Positions 15,925 through 41,600 of a stretch of DNA of 64,000 nucleotides are shown here, piece after piece (positions within the stretch are counted from its first letter, which is position 1; every line of letters starts with the position of its first letter). The notes beneath the pieces were generated by a model. That model saw only the letters and a program-made list of their open reading frames with translations. It ran no database searches and had not been told where the DNA came from. The translations under genes were made by a program, and so were the position numbers. The stretch is from Cryptosporangium phraense (lineage in GTDB: Bacteria > Actinomycetota > Actinomycetes > Mycobacteriales > Cryptosporangiaceae), in the NCBI RefSeq assembly GCF_006912135.1, contig NZ_VIRS01000001.1, positions 372,001-436,000 of the forward strand, written 5' to 3'.

Positions 15925-16668
15925 ATGGACTACGCCTTGCTCGTCGCGTTAGGCATCGCGGTCGTCGGCATCGGGTTGATCACCGTGTCGTCGGCCGGAC
16001 GTGATCGTCGGGAGGTGCGTCTCGGCCGGCAGTTGGCGGTGGTCGAACGCAAGCTGGACGCGGTGATCGAGCATTTGGGGGTCGAGGTCGGCGAGCCGGT
16101 GTATCCGGAGGTGGAGGAGCATCTCGACGAGGGTGCGACGGTGGCGGCGATCAAGGCTTATCGGGAGCGGACCGGGGCGGGGTTGCTGGAGGCCAAGACG
16201 GCGGTGGATCAGCGGATCCGGGAGAGGGAGGCCGCTACTTCGGGGGCCGGCTCTGCTGCTCTGGGATCCGCTGCTACGGGGTCCGCAGGTTCGGGATCCG
16301 ACGCGCGGGAGTCCGGCGCTCAGGGGTCCGGTGCCCGCGAGGACGCGCTCGGCGCAGCCGACGTCCACGAGGAGGTGCCCAGCGGTCGCGAGGGCGCGTT
16401 CGGCGCGGCCGATGTCCGCGAGGACGCGCTGGGCGCTCGTGAGGGCGCGCTCGGCGCTAGTGAGGGCGCGCTCGGCGCGGCCGATGTCCGCGAGGGCGGC
16501 GCTCACGAGGGCGCTGCGGCTTCTGGCCTGCGCGAGGAGACTGCGCGCACCGAGGCCGATGAATCGGCGGAACTGGGCGAGCCCGCGCTGGGCGAGCCGG
16601 CGCCGATCGCCGCCGAGCGCGCCTCCGTCGCGACCGCAGACACCGAGACACGCTCCGCCAAGTCCTGA
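15925..16668 (+). CDS. Membrane-anchored protein with ribosomal L7/L12-like domain and repeat tail
   Basis: A 247-residue protein from the ATG at 15925. It has an N-terminal membrane segment (DYALLVALGIAVVGIGLI), then a charged helix. A domain at about 60-100 has the L7/L12 C-terminal signature: VAAIKAYRERTGAGLLEAK, echoing the ribosomal K-x-VRxxTGLGLKEAK. The last 140 residues are low-complexity with repeated REDALGA/REGALGAADV units, encoded by 21-30 bp DNA repeats. Small L7/L12-like membrane proteins are known in actinobacteria without a firm function. The repeat tail is unusual and runs straight into repetitive non-coding DNA. Confidence 0.7.
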   Translation: MDYALLVALGIAVVGIGLITVSSAGRDRREVRLGRQLAVVERKLDAVIEHLGVEVGEPVYPEVEEHLDEGATVAAIKAYRERTGAGLLEAKTAVDQRIREREAATSGAGSAALGSAATGSAGSGSDARESGAQGSGAREDALGAADVHEEVPSGREGAFGAADVREDALGAREGALGASEGALGAADVREGGAHEGAAASGLREETARTEADESAELGEPALGEPAPIAAERASVATADTETRSAKS

Positions 16669-16902
16669 CCTCGCACCGGCCACGGCGAGAACGCCTGCCC
16701 GCCGGCGCGGGTAGGCGGTCTCACCCACCGCGCTGCAACGTCGCCACCCAGCGACCTGACCAGCCCGGCGCGATCCAGCCACTGCGCCGCGACTCGCCCC
16801 GCCAGGCGCACCCACCCGACGCGACGGCGCCCACCCGGCCCGACTCACCCGCTTGATCCGACCCACCGCGCGACCCGACCCACCCGCGCCGCCCGGCTCC
16901 CC

Positions 16903-17022
16903 GCCCAGCCCGACGTGGCTTCCCAGCCAGCCCGACGTGGCTTCCCGGCCAGCCCGACGTGGCTTCCAGCCCGGACCGACTTGGCTCCCCAGCCCGAACC
17001 GACGTGGCTCCCCAGCTCAGCT
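16903..17022. repeat. 22-bp tandem repeat array, five copies
   Basis: The core GACGTGGCT recurs at 16912, 16934, 16956, 16978 (as GACTTGGCT) and 17001, a period of 22, 22, 22 and 23 bases, each followed by TCCC-type sequence. The period is not a multiple of three. Confidence 0.8.
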
Positions 17023-17156
17023 CGGTGCGCGGGCTGGCCGCTTGGCGCGAACATCCGCCCGCCGTGCGGCGGCCTCCGGGCGGAGCGCGCCCCGCCCGAG
17101 CCCGCTCCAGCGCGTTCCACCGAGCGCGGCCGTCCGACCAAGCGACTCCCCACACC

Positions 17157-17500
17157 ATGCGACATGGCCACCCCACGACTCGGCCTACCCCCTCCACGCG
17201 GCCAGCCCGCGACCCGACCCCCCGCGTGACACCGCCACCCCACGCCCAGACCCCGACGCCACACGGCCAGCCCCGCGACCCGACACCCGCGTGACACCGC
17301 CACCCCACACCCGGACCCCGGCTCCACGCGGCCAGCCCCGCGACCCGACACCCCGCGTGACGCGGCCACCCCACACCCGAACCGCCGACGCCACACGGCC
17401 AGCCCCCCGACTCGACCCCCTGCGTGACGCGGCCACCCCACATCCGGACCCGTGGCGCCACGCGGCAACTCGTGCGTGGCGTGGCCACCCCCGCAATGCG
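17157..17500. repeat. 66-bp tandem repeat array, about five to six copies
   Basis: The marker CGCGTGAC with following GCCACCCCAC recurs at 17223, 17288, 17354 and 17421 (as TGCGTGAC). A diverged copy starts at about 17157 and a shortened last copy at 17473. Periods of 65, 66 and 67 bases show free indel drift, which argues against coding. Confidence 0.8.
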
Positions 17501-17948
17501 GCCTGCCCAACACGGTTGCTCACCGCCGCCCGCCAGACGCCGCCACCCGCCGCCCGCCGCCTCCCGCCAGACGCCGCCACCCGCCGCCTACCGCCAGACG
17601 CCGCCCGCCGCTAGCCGCTGGACGCCGGACTCCCACCGCCGGGCGCCGCTGCCCCGCCGCACCCAAACCAACGCAGCCCGCGCAGCACCGCCAGACCAGC
17701 ACAGCCGACCAGCACAGCCAACCGGCGCCAGCCGACCAGCGCACCCGACCGACCCGGAGTAGCCGCCTCCCGCTGGCTCGCCTTCATCCGCGCGAAGCGC
17801 GACCGGCCGACCCCGCCCACGCCACCGGTACGGCACCCGCCGTCCATCCGGCCGAACCAGCTCCCGCCGCACCACCGCGATGCCGACCACCGACACCCCG
17901 ACCGACCGCCACGACCCGCACCGATTCACCGCCGCTGCCTGGGCGACC

Positions 17949-21888: not shown

Positions 21889-24768
21889 GTGCACACTGGA
21901 TCGGTGCCGGCCCGGTACCGCGTCGATCTCCTGGTGGCCGCGTTCGTCGCGGTGCCGGTCACCGGGCAGCTCGTCAGCGCCTCGGACGTCACGGTGTTGG
22001 GCGTGCTGCTCAACGCCGGCACGGTGGTGCCGCTGGTCTGGCGAAGGCGGGCTCCGTTCGCCGCCGCGCTGGCCGTGTTCGCGGCCGGGCTGCTCGCCTC
22101 GGCGTACGCCCGGCCCGGGCAGATGCTGCAGTACGGCGCGCTCGTCGCCGGATATACGGTCGCCGACCTGGCCCGGCACCGGTGGCAGCGGTGGGGCGTG
22201 CTGGTCGGGCAGTGTCTGTTGATCCCGCCCGGCGCGATCTGGATCAAGCACAACACGCTGCCCGAGTTCCTGTTCACGATGCTGCTGCCGATCGCCGCGT
22301 GGCTGCTCGGCACGCTCGCCCGGGCGAATCGCGAGCGGAGCGACGCGCTGGCCGCCCGTGCGTCCGATCTGGAGCGTCGGCTGGCCGCCGACGCCGCCCG
22401 CGCCGCCGCGGAGGAGCGCGCCCGGATCGCGCGCGACATGCACGACGTGCTCGCCCACGCGGTGAGCGTGATGGTCGTGCAGGCCGAGGCCGGTCCGGTC
22501 GTGGTCCGGTCCGACCCCGAGCGCGCCGAGCGCGCCTTCGAGGCGATCGCGGCCGCCGGCCGCGATGCGATGGTGCAGCTCCGCCGCTCCCTGGGCGTTC
22601 TCAAGGCCCATTCGGACGTCGCTGAGCTCGCGCCGCAGCCGACGGTCGCCGCGATTCCCGACCTGGTGGCGCGAGTCAGCGCGACGCACCTGCGGGTGAC
22701 GACGGAGGTGACAGGCGCGCCGGTGCCCCTCCCGCCGGACGCGGAGCTGGCCGCGTACCGGATCGTCCAGGAGGCGCTCACGAACGCGGTGAGACACGCC
22801 TCCGCGAGGGCGGTGGAGATCCGGCTCGACTGGGAGCCGGGCGGCCTGAAGGTGTCCGTCCGAGACGATGGCCAAGCGGTGTCATCGAGCGCCGGACCGG
22901 TCGCCAGGGGCCGCGAGCCGACCGCAGCGAGCGCCCGGGAGATCGGTGCGTCCGAGGCGAGCCCGGCCGGAGCCGGGGCCGGGGTGGCCGGGGCGGCCCG
23001 GGCCGGGTTAGCCGGGGCCGGCGGGGATGCAGCCGGGGTCAGCGCGGCTCGGGCGGAGGTGGCCGGTGCGCCTCAGGCGGGGGTGGCCGGCGCGGCTTGG
23101 GCGGAGGTGGCCGGGGCCGGCGCGGCCGGAAGGGATGTGGCCGGGGCGGGCGCGGCCGAAAGGGATGCGGCCGGAGTCAGCGCGGCTCGGGCGGGTCTGG
23201 CCGGGGCCGGCGCGGCCGAGGCGCGCACGGTCGGCACCGGTGCGATCGACAGGGATGCAGCCGGGATCGGCGCGGCTCGGCCGGGTGCGGCCGGGGCCGA
23301 GGCGGGCATGGTCGGCGCCGGTGCGGTCGGTATGGATCCGGTCGCGGTTGGCGCGGCAGCGGTCGGCGCTGGAAGGCTCGGTGGTCGCGGCGGGATCGGA
23401 CAGGGGCTGATCGGGGTGCGGGAGCGCGCGGCGGCGTGCGGCGGGTGGGCATCCGCCGGGCCGGCGGAGGGCGGTGGGTTCGTCGTTCGGGCCTGGCTTC
23501 CCGCGCTTCCTTCCCGCGCCACCACCGAACCAGTCCCCCCGGGCGCGAACCCCCGCGCCGCCAGTCACCACCACGCCGGCCGACACCCCGCTAGCCCTAG
23601 CCGCATCACCAGTCATCACCACGCCGGCCCCCACCACCTCGTCCGTCACGGCGGCGCCGTCCGCTTCCGCCACGTCCTCCACCGCCACCACCCCCGCCGC
23701 TTCGACCCCCGCCACCAGCGCGACCGCCACCACCGCGACCGCTGCCACCACGCCCGCCACCAGCGCGCTCGCGAACCCCACGGTCACCGGCACCACCGCA
23801 ACCGCCACCACCAGCAGCACGACCGGCGGCAGCACGACCGCCGGCAACGCGGCCACCGGCACTACGCCCACCACCAGCACCGCGACCGTCGGCACAGCGA
23901 CTACCACCAGCACGGTCGCCAGCGCCGTACCCGGCGGCACCGCGACTGCCGGCACCCCCGCCACCAGCGCGACCGCCAGTACCGCGACGGCCGGCGGCGT
24001 GGACGGTGGGGCGGCGGGCGGGGCTTTCGCGGGGCCTCGCTTTGGGGTCTTGCCGGGTGGCTCGGGTCGGCGCGCCGGAGGTCGGGGGTGATTCGGATCG
24101 TGGTGGCGGACGATCAGGAGCTCGTGCGCAGCGGGTTCGCGATGATCCTCGAGGCTCAAGCGGACTTCGACGTCGTGGCCGAGGTCGGCGACGGGGGCGC
24201 GGCCGTGGCAGCGGCACACGACCTCTCCCCCGACGTCGTCCTGCTCGACGTCCGGATGCCCGGGATGGACGGGCTGCGGGCCGCGCGCCGGATCTGCGCG
24301 GAGACGACCGCGAAGGTCGTCATGCTGACGACCTTCGACCAGGACGACTACGTGTACGACGCGCTCTACGCGGGCGCCAGCGGGTTCCTCCTCAAGGATC
24401 TCCGGCGCGACGACCTGGTGCACGCGGTCCGGGTCGTCGCCTCCGGCGAGGCGCTGCTGGCGCCGACCGTGACGCAGCGGCTGATCGCGGACGTCGTCCG
24501 GCAGCGCGCGGCCGGGGTGGTGACGCCGCACCGCCTGGATGCGCTGACCGCTCGCGAGCGGGAGACCTTACTGCTCCTCGGGCGCGGGCTCTCGAACGCC
24601 GAGATCGCGGCGGCGCTGGTGGTCAGCGAGCACACGGTCAAGACGCATGTGAGCAGCGTGCTGGGCAAGCTCGGTCTGCGGGACCGGATCCAGGCCGTGA
24701 TCGCCGCGTACGAAACCGGCCTGATCGTGCCCGGCAGCGCCGCCAGCGACTCGGCCGCCGACAGCTAA
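21889..24768 (+). CDS. Histidine kinase with expanded ATP lid, frame open into response regulator
   Basis: A single 959-codon frame. Residues 1-145 hold four or five membrane segments. HisKA_3 follows with RIARDMHDVLAH (phospho-His185), then the ATPase N box EALTNAVRHA (Asn299), G1 box DDG at 326-328 and G2 box GIGQGLIGVRER at about 502. G1-to-G2 is about 174 residues instead of the usual 15-25; the extra is Ala/Gly decapeptide repeats. The kinase should end near residue 535 (FVVRAWLP), but no stop occurs. About 190 His/Arg/Asp-rich residues lead, in frame, into a complete NarL-type regulator. A frame slip at a C6 run (23535-23540) would instead give a Thr/Ala-rich tail ending at TGA 24089-24091. 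GTG 21904 is an alternative start. Confidence 0.65.
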   Translation: MHTGSVPARYRVDLLVAAFVAVPVTGQLVSASDVTVLGVLLNAGTVVPLVWRRRAPFAAALAVFAAGLLASAYARPGQMLQYGALVAGYTVADLARHRWQRWGVLVGQCLLIPPGAIWIKHNTLPEFLFTMLLPIAAWLLGTLARANRERSDALAARASDLERRLAADAARAAAEERARIARDMHDVLAHAVSVMVVQAEAGPVVVRSDPERAERAFEAIAAAGRDAMVQLRRSLGVLKAHSDVAELAPQPTVAAIPDLVARVSATHLRVTTEVTGAPVPLPPDAELAAYRIVQEALTNAVRHASARAVEIRLDWEPGGLKVSVRDDGQAVSSSAGPVARGREPTAASAREIGASEASPAGAGAGVAGAARAGLAGAGGDAAGVSAARAEVAGAPQAGVAGAAWAEVAGAGAAGRDVAGAGAAERDAAGVSAARAGLAGAGAAEARTVGTGAIDRDAAGIGAARPGAAGAEAGMVGAGAVGMDPVAVGAAAVGAGRLGGRGGIGQGLIGVRERAAACGGWASAGPAEGGGFVVRAWLPALPSRATTEPVPPGANPRAASHHHAGRHPASPSRITSHHHAGPHHLVRHGGAVRFRHVLHRHHPRRFDPRHQRDRHHRDRCHHARHQRAREPHGHRHHRNRHHQQHDRRQHDRRQRGHRHYAHHQHRDRRHSDYHQHGRQRRTRRHRDCRHPRHQRDRQYRDGRRRGRWGGGRGFRGASLWGLAGWLGSARRRSGVIRIVVADDQELVRSGFAMILEAQADFDVVAEVGDGGAAVAAAHDLSPDVVLLDVRMPGMDGLRAARRICAETTAKVVMLTTFDQDDYVYDALYAGASGFLLKDLRRDDLVHAVRVVASGEALLAPTVTQRLIADVVRQRAAGVVTPHRLDALTARERETLLLLGRGLSNAEIAAALVVSEHTVKTHVSSVLGKLGLRDRIQAVIAAYETGLIVPGSAASDSAADS
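22960..23390 (+). repeat. 30-bp coding tandem repeat inside the kinase ATP lid
   Basis: About a dozen degenerate units, mostly 30 bp, encode decapeptides such as VAGAGAAERD, AAGVSAARAG and LAGAGAAEAR. They lie between the G1 and G2 ATP-binding boxes of the histidine kinase. Most copies preserve reading frame. Confidence 0.8.
24088..24768 (+). CDS. NarL/LuxR-type response regulator
   Basis: A 226-residue regulator if started at the GTG at 24088, which has GGAGG six bases upstream. The receiver domain has the acidic pair Asp8-Asp9, phospho-acceptor Asp54 in VLLDVRMPGMDG, and the TTFDQDD and FLLKD motifs. The C-terminal LuxR HTH is LTARERETLLLLGRGLSNAEIA...VSEHTVKTHVSSVLGKL. It is the partner of the kinase encoded in the same frame upstream. 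Its start overlaps a TGA in the neighbouring frame as GTGA, the coupling pattern seen elsewhere in this window. The last codons merge into a 15-bp repeat. Confidence 0.85.
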   Translation: MIRIVVADDQELVRSGFAMILEAQADFDVVAEVGDGGAAVAAAHDLSPDVVLLDVRMPGMDGLRAARRICAETTAKVVMLTTFDQDDYVYDALYAGASGFLLKDLRRDDLVHAVRVVASGEALLAPTVTQRLIADVVRQRAAGVVTPHRLDALTARERETLLLLGRGLSNAEIAAALVVSEHTVKTHVSSVLGKLGLRDRIQAVIAAYETGLIVPGSAASDSAADS

Positions 24769-24777
24769 GCCGCCAAG

Positions 24778-24837
24778 AATTCAGCCGACAAGAACTCGGC
24801 CGACGAGAACTCAGCCGACCAGGACTCAGCCGCCGGA
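24778..24837. repeat. 15-bp tandem repeat just after the response regulator gene
   Basis: Copies of AACTCAGCCGACAAG with small changes start at 24778, 24793, 24808 and 24823, period 15. A weaker copy lies in the last codons of the regulator gene (from about 24749), so the array straddles its stop codon. Confidence 0.75.
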
Positions 24838-24902
24838 GGGATCCGTCCAGATGGCTCCTGACGGCGATGTGGACGCGCCCGCCGCCCGCCGACGATCGGG
24901 CC

Positions 24903-25448
24903 ATGTACATCGCTGCTCCACTGCTGCTGCTCGCTTACGGCGTCATCCGGCTGATCGACGGGCGGGACGGGGCCCACGGACCGGGCCCGGCCTGGACTAC
25001 CGGCCACCTGCTGTTCCTGGCCTCCTTACTGATCTTCGGACTCATCGCCCTGGACGTGCGACGCCGACTGAACACCGTTCCGGGGGCGGTCGCGGCGGCC
25101 GCGACCCTGGTCGGACTGATCGCGTTCGTGAAGACCGTGGTGATCGACATCGTGGTCGGGCTCCGGGCCTCCGATCACGAGGCCATGCACGCGGTCCGGG
25201 AACAGTACGAGTCCGGGGCCGACCGCGTCGTCGACCCGCTGTCGCCGCTGTTCCCGATCGGGCTGGCCGTGCTGTTGGTGCTGCTGGCGGTGTCCCGGCG
25301 CGTCCCGTGGTGGAGTCCGGTTCTTGCCGTGTGCGGCTTCTGTTCGATCGTGGCGACGCTCGATCTGCTGCCGGTCGCCGCGATGCTTCTGCTCGTCGCG
25401 CTGGTACCGCTGGCCCGGGAGCGCACACCGGCCGCCGTCACCCGCTGA
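24903..25448 (+). CDS. Polytopic membrane protein of unknown function
   Basis: A 181-residue protein with about six hydrophobic segments, from the ATG at 24903. Conserved-looking polar parts are RLIDGRDGAHGPGPAWTTGH after the first helix and SDHEAMHAVREQYESGADRVVDPLSPLFPIG in a central loop. No named family is recognised. It follows the two-component genes after the 15-bp repeat and could be part of that unit, but the gap of 134 bp argues for separate expression. Confidence 0.65.
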   Translation: MYIAAPLLLLAYGVIRLIDGRDGAHGPGPAWTTGHLLFLASLLIFGLIALDVRRRLNTVPGAVAAAATLVGLIAFVKTVVIDIVVGLRASDHEAMHAVREQYESGADRVVDPLSPLFPIGLAVLLVLLAVSRRVPWWSPVLAVCGFCSIVATLDLLPVAAMLLLVALVPLARERTPAAVTR

Positions 25449-41050: not shown

Positions 41051-41600
41051 GACGTCCCCGCCCATGACGCGGCCACCCACCGCGCGTCCGCCGCGACCGG
41101 ATCCGGTGGCCGGTCCGACCGGGCCCGGTCCGGACCGGCGCGCCGCAGCGGCGGACGGCGTCCGCTCGCGCAGCGGGCTGGTCCTGACCGGCCCACCGCA
41201 CGCCCCCCGCGACCGCCGCCCCGAACCCCCGACCGGACCCGTGGCCGGTCCCGATCGGGCCTGTCCGGACGGGCGCGCCGCAGCGGCGGCTGGCGTCCGC
41301 TCGCGCAGCGGGCTGGTCCTGACCGGCCCACCGCGCGGCCCCCGCGACCGCGACCCCGGGCCCCCGACCGGATCCGACGGCCGATCCGATCGGGCCCGGT
41401 CCGGACCAGCGCGCCGAGGCGGCGGCCGGCGGCCGTTGCGGCACCGGCTAGCTCGTCCCCGCCACGACGCGGCCGCCCACCGCGTGTCCGCCGCGACCGC
41501 GACCCCGGCCCCCCAACCGGAACCCGTGGCCGATCCGATCGAGCCCGGTCCGCACCGGCGCGCCGCAGCGGCGGCCGGCGTCCGCTCGCGCGGCGGGTGA
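41032..41600. repeat. Composite repeat block containing a copy of the PASTA gene 3' end
   Basis: A core beginning GCGCGCCGCAGCGGCGG recurs at 41138, 41273, 41409 and 41538 (periods 135, 136, 129). On a larger scale, the segment from 41032 (CCGTTGCGGCACC, the last PASTA codons) recurs at 41433, 401 bases later, still carrying a CTAG where the PASTA stop is. Bases 41101-41170 match 41521-41590 almost throughout. Confidence 0.8.

Follow-up and report, generated by a model that had tools for sequence, protein, structure and literature searches.

A sensor kinase and a NarL-type regulator in one open frame of Cryptosporangium phraense: a probable phase accident in repetitive DNA

In the 64,000-nucleotide stretch of the Cryptosporangium phraense genome analysed here (assembly GCF_006912135.1, contig NZ_VIRS01000001.1, positions 372,001 to 436,000 of the forward strand; hereafter the window), a sensor kinase and a NarL-type response regulator are contained in a single open frame of 959 codons. 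This is probably an ordinary two-protein pair of a DesK-type kinase and a NarL-type regulator, the merged frame being a phase accident in repetitive DNA. Repetitive DNA would have expanded at two permissive places, the flexible ATP lid of the kinase, where it stayed in frame, and the segment from the kinase end to the regulator start. The second expansion would form a Thr/Ala-rich disordered kinase tail, meant to end at the TGA of 24089-24091 over the regulator GTG. Close to where this tail begins, one extra base (mod 3) would then bring the kinase in phase with the regulator and leave a single open reading frame (ORF) in the assembly. This base may be an error made in assembling the GC-rich repeats or a genuine indel of recent date; either way, the regulator would be translated from its own GGAGG and GTG, and a real indel would give some read-through product as a by-product. 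We infer here the reading frame of the tail, the origin of the extra base and the protein products.

The merged frame (21889-24768, plus strand) starts at GTG, contains no internal stop, and unites kinase and regulator in phase, as the original prediction had described. Pfam matches along it were DUF7134, HisKA_3 and the first half of HATPase_c, all within residues 10-337, followed by Response_reg and GerE within residues 737-939. Two further elements of that description were found in place: the regulator carries its own GGAGG and GTG, and the neighbouring +1 frame is open from 23411 to a TGA that overlaps this GTG as GTGA. The parts of the locus are as follows.

21889-22872, plus strand: membrane/sensor part of the kinase, DHp, N box and G1 box (Pfam DUF7134, HisKA_3 and HATPase_c; His185 at 22441-22443)
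22873-23403, plus strand: low-complexity insertion in the ATP lid, in frame, 177 residues, Ala/Gly-rich (tandem repeats, 15/30-bp periodicity)
23398-23502, plus strand: G2 box and kinase C-terminus, GQGLIGVRER...FVVRAWLP (alignment with relatives; modelled helix and strands)
23503-24085, plus strand: tail or junction array, low-complexity, C-rich repeats, 583 nt or 3n+1 (repeats, phase analysis, length, composition)
24077-24081, plus strand: GGAGG, Shine-Dalgarno-like, with a 6-nt spacer to the regulator GTG at 24088 (sequence)
24088-24091, plus strand: GTGA, regulator start overlapping the +1-frame TGA at 24089-24091 (position of the kinase stop in most relatives)
24088-24768, plus strand: NarL-type response regulator, 226 aa from its own GTG (Pfam Response_reg and GerE)
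24768-24832, plus strand: 15-bp repeat starting at the regulator stop, the third low-complexity patch of the operon (repeat search)
24903-25448, plus strand: small membrane-protein-like gene, also found after the pair in three congeners (ORF lists; no NCBIfam match)

Kinase-regulator junction in relatives

Relatives were collected by a scan of genome contigs. The best 80 of 155 stretches encoding a relative, together with three orthologues and one paralogue from congeners, made up 84 loci, of which 83 were testable; L027, which runs off its contig, was left out, and L050, in which the kinase frame ends early, was counted as not fused. The own family of C. phraense comprises five genomes. For the three congener orthologues, the kinase core is 69-74% identical to that of the window and the regulator 82-84%.

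In 66 of the 82 relatives with an identified start, the kinase ends in a TGA that overlaps the start of the regulator, and in 77 NTGA was observed at the regulator start. The remaining 16 consisted of eight Streptomyces in which the kinase frame runs past the regulator start, five relatives with stops 134-867 nt before it, the congener G002 (stop 10 nt before the start) and two with a one-base overlap. In the eight Streptomyces (L031, L037, L040, L042, L048, L053, L069 and L072), the kinase frame extends 28-106 nt into the regulator gene, in another frame. Among the congeners, the kinase stop follows WLP by 3 nt (G001 and G003) or 6 nt (G002), and the kinase of G001 ends in CTG CCC GGA TGA with the regulator ATG within. 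The TGA at 24089-24091 of the window is the same landmark as the kinase stop of the relatives, but it stands in the +1 frame. As the 583-nt array is 3n+1 in length, it shifts the kinase out of phase with this TGA and into phase with the regulator. Short overlaps of the ATGA/GTGA type are of a frequent kind and are linked to translational coupling, according to an excerpt of PMC3887535. Upstream of the regulator start, a motif of the GGAGG class was detected in 9 of the 82 relatives and any Shine-Dalgarno-like motif in 25. Shuffling of the local sequence is expected to yield GGAGG in 2% of cases.

A kinase-regulator fusion was found in none of the 83 testable relatives, and no orthologue kept the fused architecture; the true fusion, one option of the original prediction, thus gained no support from them. 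Relatives had an ordinary stop after the kinase end and then a separate regulator, the arrangement that had been named beforehand as speaking against a fusion. In a 61-genome sample of the order, the merged frame was present at none of 20 further regulator places, several of which are the same as those above. In that sample, the regulator of congener G002 was in phase with the kinase, but the frame was open for only 3 codons upstream. The own genome gave 51 kinase matches, two of them within one gene, and no receiver or LuxR domain was detected in the ten with the longest open frames after that of the window.

A screen for junction fusions was also performed on 456 kb with 1134 stop-to-stop frames of at least 200 aa, only 119 of which had any match in congener stretches; it is a weak screen. 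Six rows were obtained, three from this pair and three from two frames of L124. One of the latter frames was tentatively read as a D-serine-dehydratase-like gene with an upstream extension lacking a Pfam match, and the other is probably an antisense frame. The D-serine-dehydratase-like gene is located within a few kb of the pair in congeners, whereas it is about 236 kb away in the genome of the window. A single-chain fusion of kinase and NarL-type regulator was not named in the titles and abstract beginnings of the open-licence papers listed, by which its absence is not proven, nor was it mentioned in an excerpt of a paper on actinobacterial LuxR proteins (PMC3466318).

Kinase core, ATP lid and constraint

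The kinase carries His185, the N box, G1 (VRDDG, ending at 22872) and G2 (GQGLIGVRER, with GLIGVRER from 23404). Its HisKA_3 domain (PF07730, E 2.1e-16) includes the conserved His, and H185 is invariant in an alignment of 26 kinases; in this kinase-only alignment, the window kinase kept all 46 columns that are invariant in the 25 others. The adjoining regulator is composed of a receiver (Response_reg, E 5.6e-27) and a LuxR-type helix-turn-helix (GerE, E 3.4e-16). The match of HATPase_c covers profile positions 3-55 of 111, and G2 was found by alignment beyond the insertion. The original prediction of a complete kinase was correct as to His185 and the N and G boxes, but overlooked the 177-residue low-complexity insertion between G1 and G2.

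The ATP lid of the 83 relatives has a median length of 12 residues, the longest two being 65 and 201 by the count of the script. When measured directly, the insertion is 177 residues in the window and 202 in an orthologue from Actinomadura barringtoniae (L018). The latter, in the kinase at L018:5001-6677, is Gly/Ser/Ala-rich; smaller lid expansions were observed in L017, L027, L040, L062 and L069. In an AlphaFold model built with 26 sequences (mean predicted local distance difference test score, pLDDT, 69.4; predicted TM-score 0.42), residues 334-502 have pLDDT below 50 and are predicted to be disordered. Beyond them, a modelled helix (505-516) and two strands (520-525 and 531-537) close the ATP-binding fold, with a pLDDT of 90-96 for the block from residue 511. 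In a Foldseek search with the kinase model, the first 26 Protein Data Bank (PDB) matches were DesK entries; the best E was 5.2e-7, and TM-scores over the whole query were low. The ATP-lid loop is missing in a DesK-DesR crystal structure and had to be rebuilt for simulation, according to an excerpt of PMC5231405. The ATP lid is thus a flexible site that allows an insertion to loop out, and we infer that the kinase with the lid insertion can still work. Large ATP-lid insertions in two genera suggest that the loop tolerates long disordered additions.

Both proteins are under purifying selection, and neither looks decayed. Between the window and congeners, the ratio of nonsynonymous to synonymous substitution rates (dN/dS; pairwise, Nei-Gojobori) was 0.34-0.37 over 363 kinase codons, and 0.16-0.19 over 217 regulator codons. 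The kinase core of the window is 65-68% identical to those of four Actinomadura outgroups, and the congener cores are 60-65% identical; the columns compared were anchored on the window sequence, which slightly favours the window.

Kinase, regulator and small membrane-protein-like gene are found together in all four genomes (window 21889-25448; L009-L011 in the congeners). The 15-bp repeat at 24768-24832 extends the C-terminal reading of the regulator past its stop as NSADK/NSADE/NSADQ units, and the congener regulators end about nine residues before that of the window.

Reading frame of the tail and rival readings

In DNA as GC-rich as this, the regulator is routinely preceded by a long open frame. 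In the 83 relatives, the regulator frame was open upstream for a median of 179 codons, for at least 150 in 46 relatives and for at least 300 in 28. Frame 0 through 23503-24087 stayed open in 46% of 2000 dinucleotide shuffles (both frames in 19%), and in 29% of 2000 shuffles of the +1-frame tail codons. Since shuffles and relatives are often open too, the open merged frame is in itself unremarkable, and since 46 of the 83 relatives are open for at least 150 codons, a change of one base would often look like a fusion. Should the merged frame not be real, it is a warning for GC-rich genomes that long merged frames are cheap.

These results bear on the reading as a true fusion, a 959-aa hybrid in which a disordered linker rich in Arg and His would tether the NarL-type regulator to the kinase that phosphorylates it, and which we consider unlikely. 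The frame is uninterrupted, both domains are constrained, the codon usage of the array allows frame 0, and in-frame C-terminal additions are possible for kinases of this genus, as in the conserved kinase-astacin join described below. Against this stand, besides the chance expectation of an open frame, the lack of fused relatives and of receiver or LuxR domains in the ten own-genome kinases, and the presence of the stop position of the relatives, the regulator GTG and the Shine-Dalgarno motif. A membrane-tethered DNA-binding domain would also need a new mode of action, although hybrid two-component systems (HTCS) of Bacteroides, as described in an excerpt of PMC11253607, show that this is possible.

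Reading of the tail in the +1 frame is favoured with moderate confidence. In this frame the tail contains 53 Thr, 45 Ala and 23 Pro, and in frame 0 it contains 50 Arg and 39 His. A phase model indicated one triplet phase from about 23548 to 24012 (about 450 nt), the preceding stretch fitting the frame-0 register. The best single phase break was located at 23564, with 23547-23567 close behind, and scored 17.5 log units above +1 for the entire tail. Among arrays elsewhere in the genome, the best match (L108, 68% identity over 262 nt) belongs to an apparent membrane protein, in whose Thr/Ala/Pro tail it lies; read off frame, it resembles frame 0 of the window. A kinase with a repeat tail ending at GTGA, another option of the original prediction, is the best fit to this break and to the kinase stop site of the relatives, but the signal is weak.

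Several observations weigh against a phase accident with a +1 tail. The assembled sequence has no stop between kinase and regulator. The first tail stretch shows a weak phase preference (permutation p = 0.10); the array itself supplied the training data of the phase model, and the break position was picked from 198. In mean codon ln P, +1 (-3.706) and frame 0 (-3.753) are practically equal in the array, and the codon-usage path stayed in frame 0 throughout at switch penalties of 12 and 20. As the flanking genes do, the array has its GC minimum at codon position 2, when read in frame 0. The dN/dS values of the window pairs are slightly higher than those between congeners (kinase 0.25-0.32, regulator 0.11-0.15), and the window regulator is slightly further from those of Actinomadura (73-77% identity, against 75-79% for congeners), so that mild relaxation is possible. 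In favour of the +1 tail, the codon-usage path at a switch penalty of 8 passed into +1 at 23563 and out at 24050; at 5 it made eight switches. Training of codon usage was limited to 23 stretches with 6696 codons, since the congener regions retrieved match few frames; codon usage and the Viterbi path made no choice between the frames. A clear wobble signature in the repeat mismatches by codon position was detected in no frame.

Two suggestions about the origin of the repeats were rejected. The second array is not recognizable as an inverted copy of the first (local alignment gave a score of 46, and ten shuffles gave 31-47), and a strain-wide excess of repeats was not observed in the stretches sampled (array cover 24.2 bp per kb, against 25.7 in G001, 11.7 in G002 and 15.3 in G003). 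Dense tandem arrays are present elsewhere in the window (16335-17750 and 41094-41597), some with periods not divisible by three, and a 135-bp unit occurs there in 3.6 copies. Congener G002 also has a repeat expansion between genes: tandem GRMSESAA repeats lie at the junction of two upstream genes (L009, about 700-850).

The original prediction had placed a one-base slip at a C6 run. This run exists at 23535-23540, and CCC-C steps favour +1 slips. Programmed or transcriptional slippage there, which would put a regulated fraction of the kinase products in the Thr/Ala frame, is nevertheless very improbable: the CCC-C step is suitably placed and directed, but the window contains 19 runs of six or more G or C, so that the slippery site is not uniquely placed, the run is outside the twelve best break positions, and the tail was found in no relative examined. 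No specific evidence was obtained for the proposal that slippage makes both products.

If the merged frame is real, other outcomes have to be considered. A recent fusion by repeat expansion, in which the kinase was carried past its stop in phase so that a self-contained kinase-NarL hybrid and a free regulator from the internal start would both be made, is conceivable but unlikely. A dual output, with read-through fusion and free regulator coexisting, is unlikely as well: the open frame and the GGAGG/GTG are consistent with it, but it would follow automatically from a real indel and therefore gives no sign of selection. A real merged frame would nonetheless represent a route, caught in the act, from a coupled two-gene system to a hybrid sensor-regulator by repeat expansion at the stop/start overlap.

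Comparison with known systems

A different C-terminal join was found in the own genome. At L178:1389-4400 (contig C6), a 1004-codon frame encodes a membrane HisKA_3 kinase with a C-terminal astacin (M12A), and a NarL-type regulator gene follows it. Relatives of the astacin part are present in three congeners (L209, L210 and L211), in frames 1171, 1098 and 1177 codons long. For G002 and G003, one frame holds both the H-box and G2 of the kinase and the astacin HExxH, and the spacing between H-box and G2 is 149 residues, as in L178; the distance from G2 to HExxH is 153 in L178, 290 in G002 and 240 in G003. The motif script did not pick up G001. A real fusion in this genus is thus one that different species keep in phase, with a linker of variable length. 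Unlike this join, the kinase-regulator pair is not kept in phase across species, as judged from the sequences compared. The kinase-astacin fusion was not found in the titles and abstracts of the papers listed, and possibly this join is more novel than the kinase-regulator merger.

If the merged frame were translated, it would resemble the HTCS of Bacteroides in having kinase and DNA-binding response regulator in one chain. Those systems differ in their AraC-type DNA-binding domains and form a large class (as given in the excerpt of PMC11253607), whereas here the regulator is NarL-type, in one strain, with no fused relatives found.

The kinase-regulator pair itself belongs to a known kind. As in DesK-DesR type systems, a membrane kinase with HisKA_3 and HATPase_c (H, N, G1 and G2) stands adjacent to a NarL-type regulator; the window differs in the 177-residue lid insertion, the 583-nt junction repeat DNA and the merged frame as assembled. 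The Actinomadura barringtoniae orthologue shares the large lid insertion and GGAGG before the regulator, its kinase being 66% identical in the best segment, but there the two genes are separate, with a normal kinase stop in a TTGA overlap.

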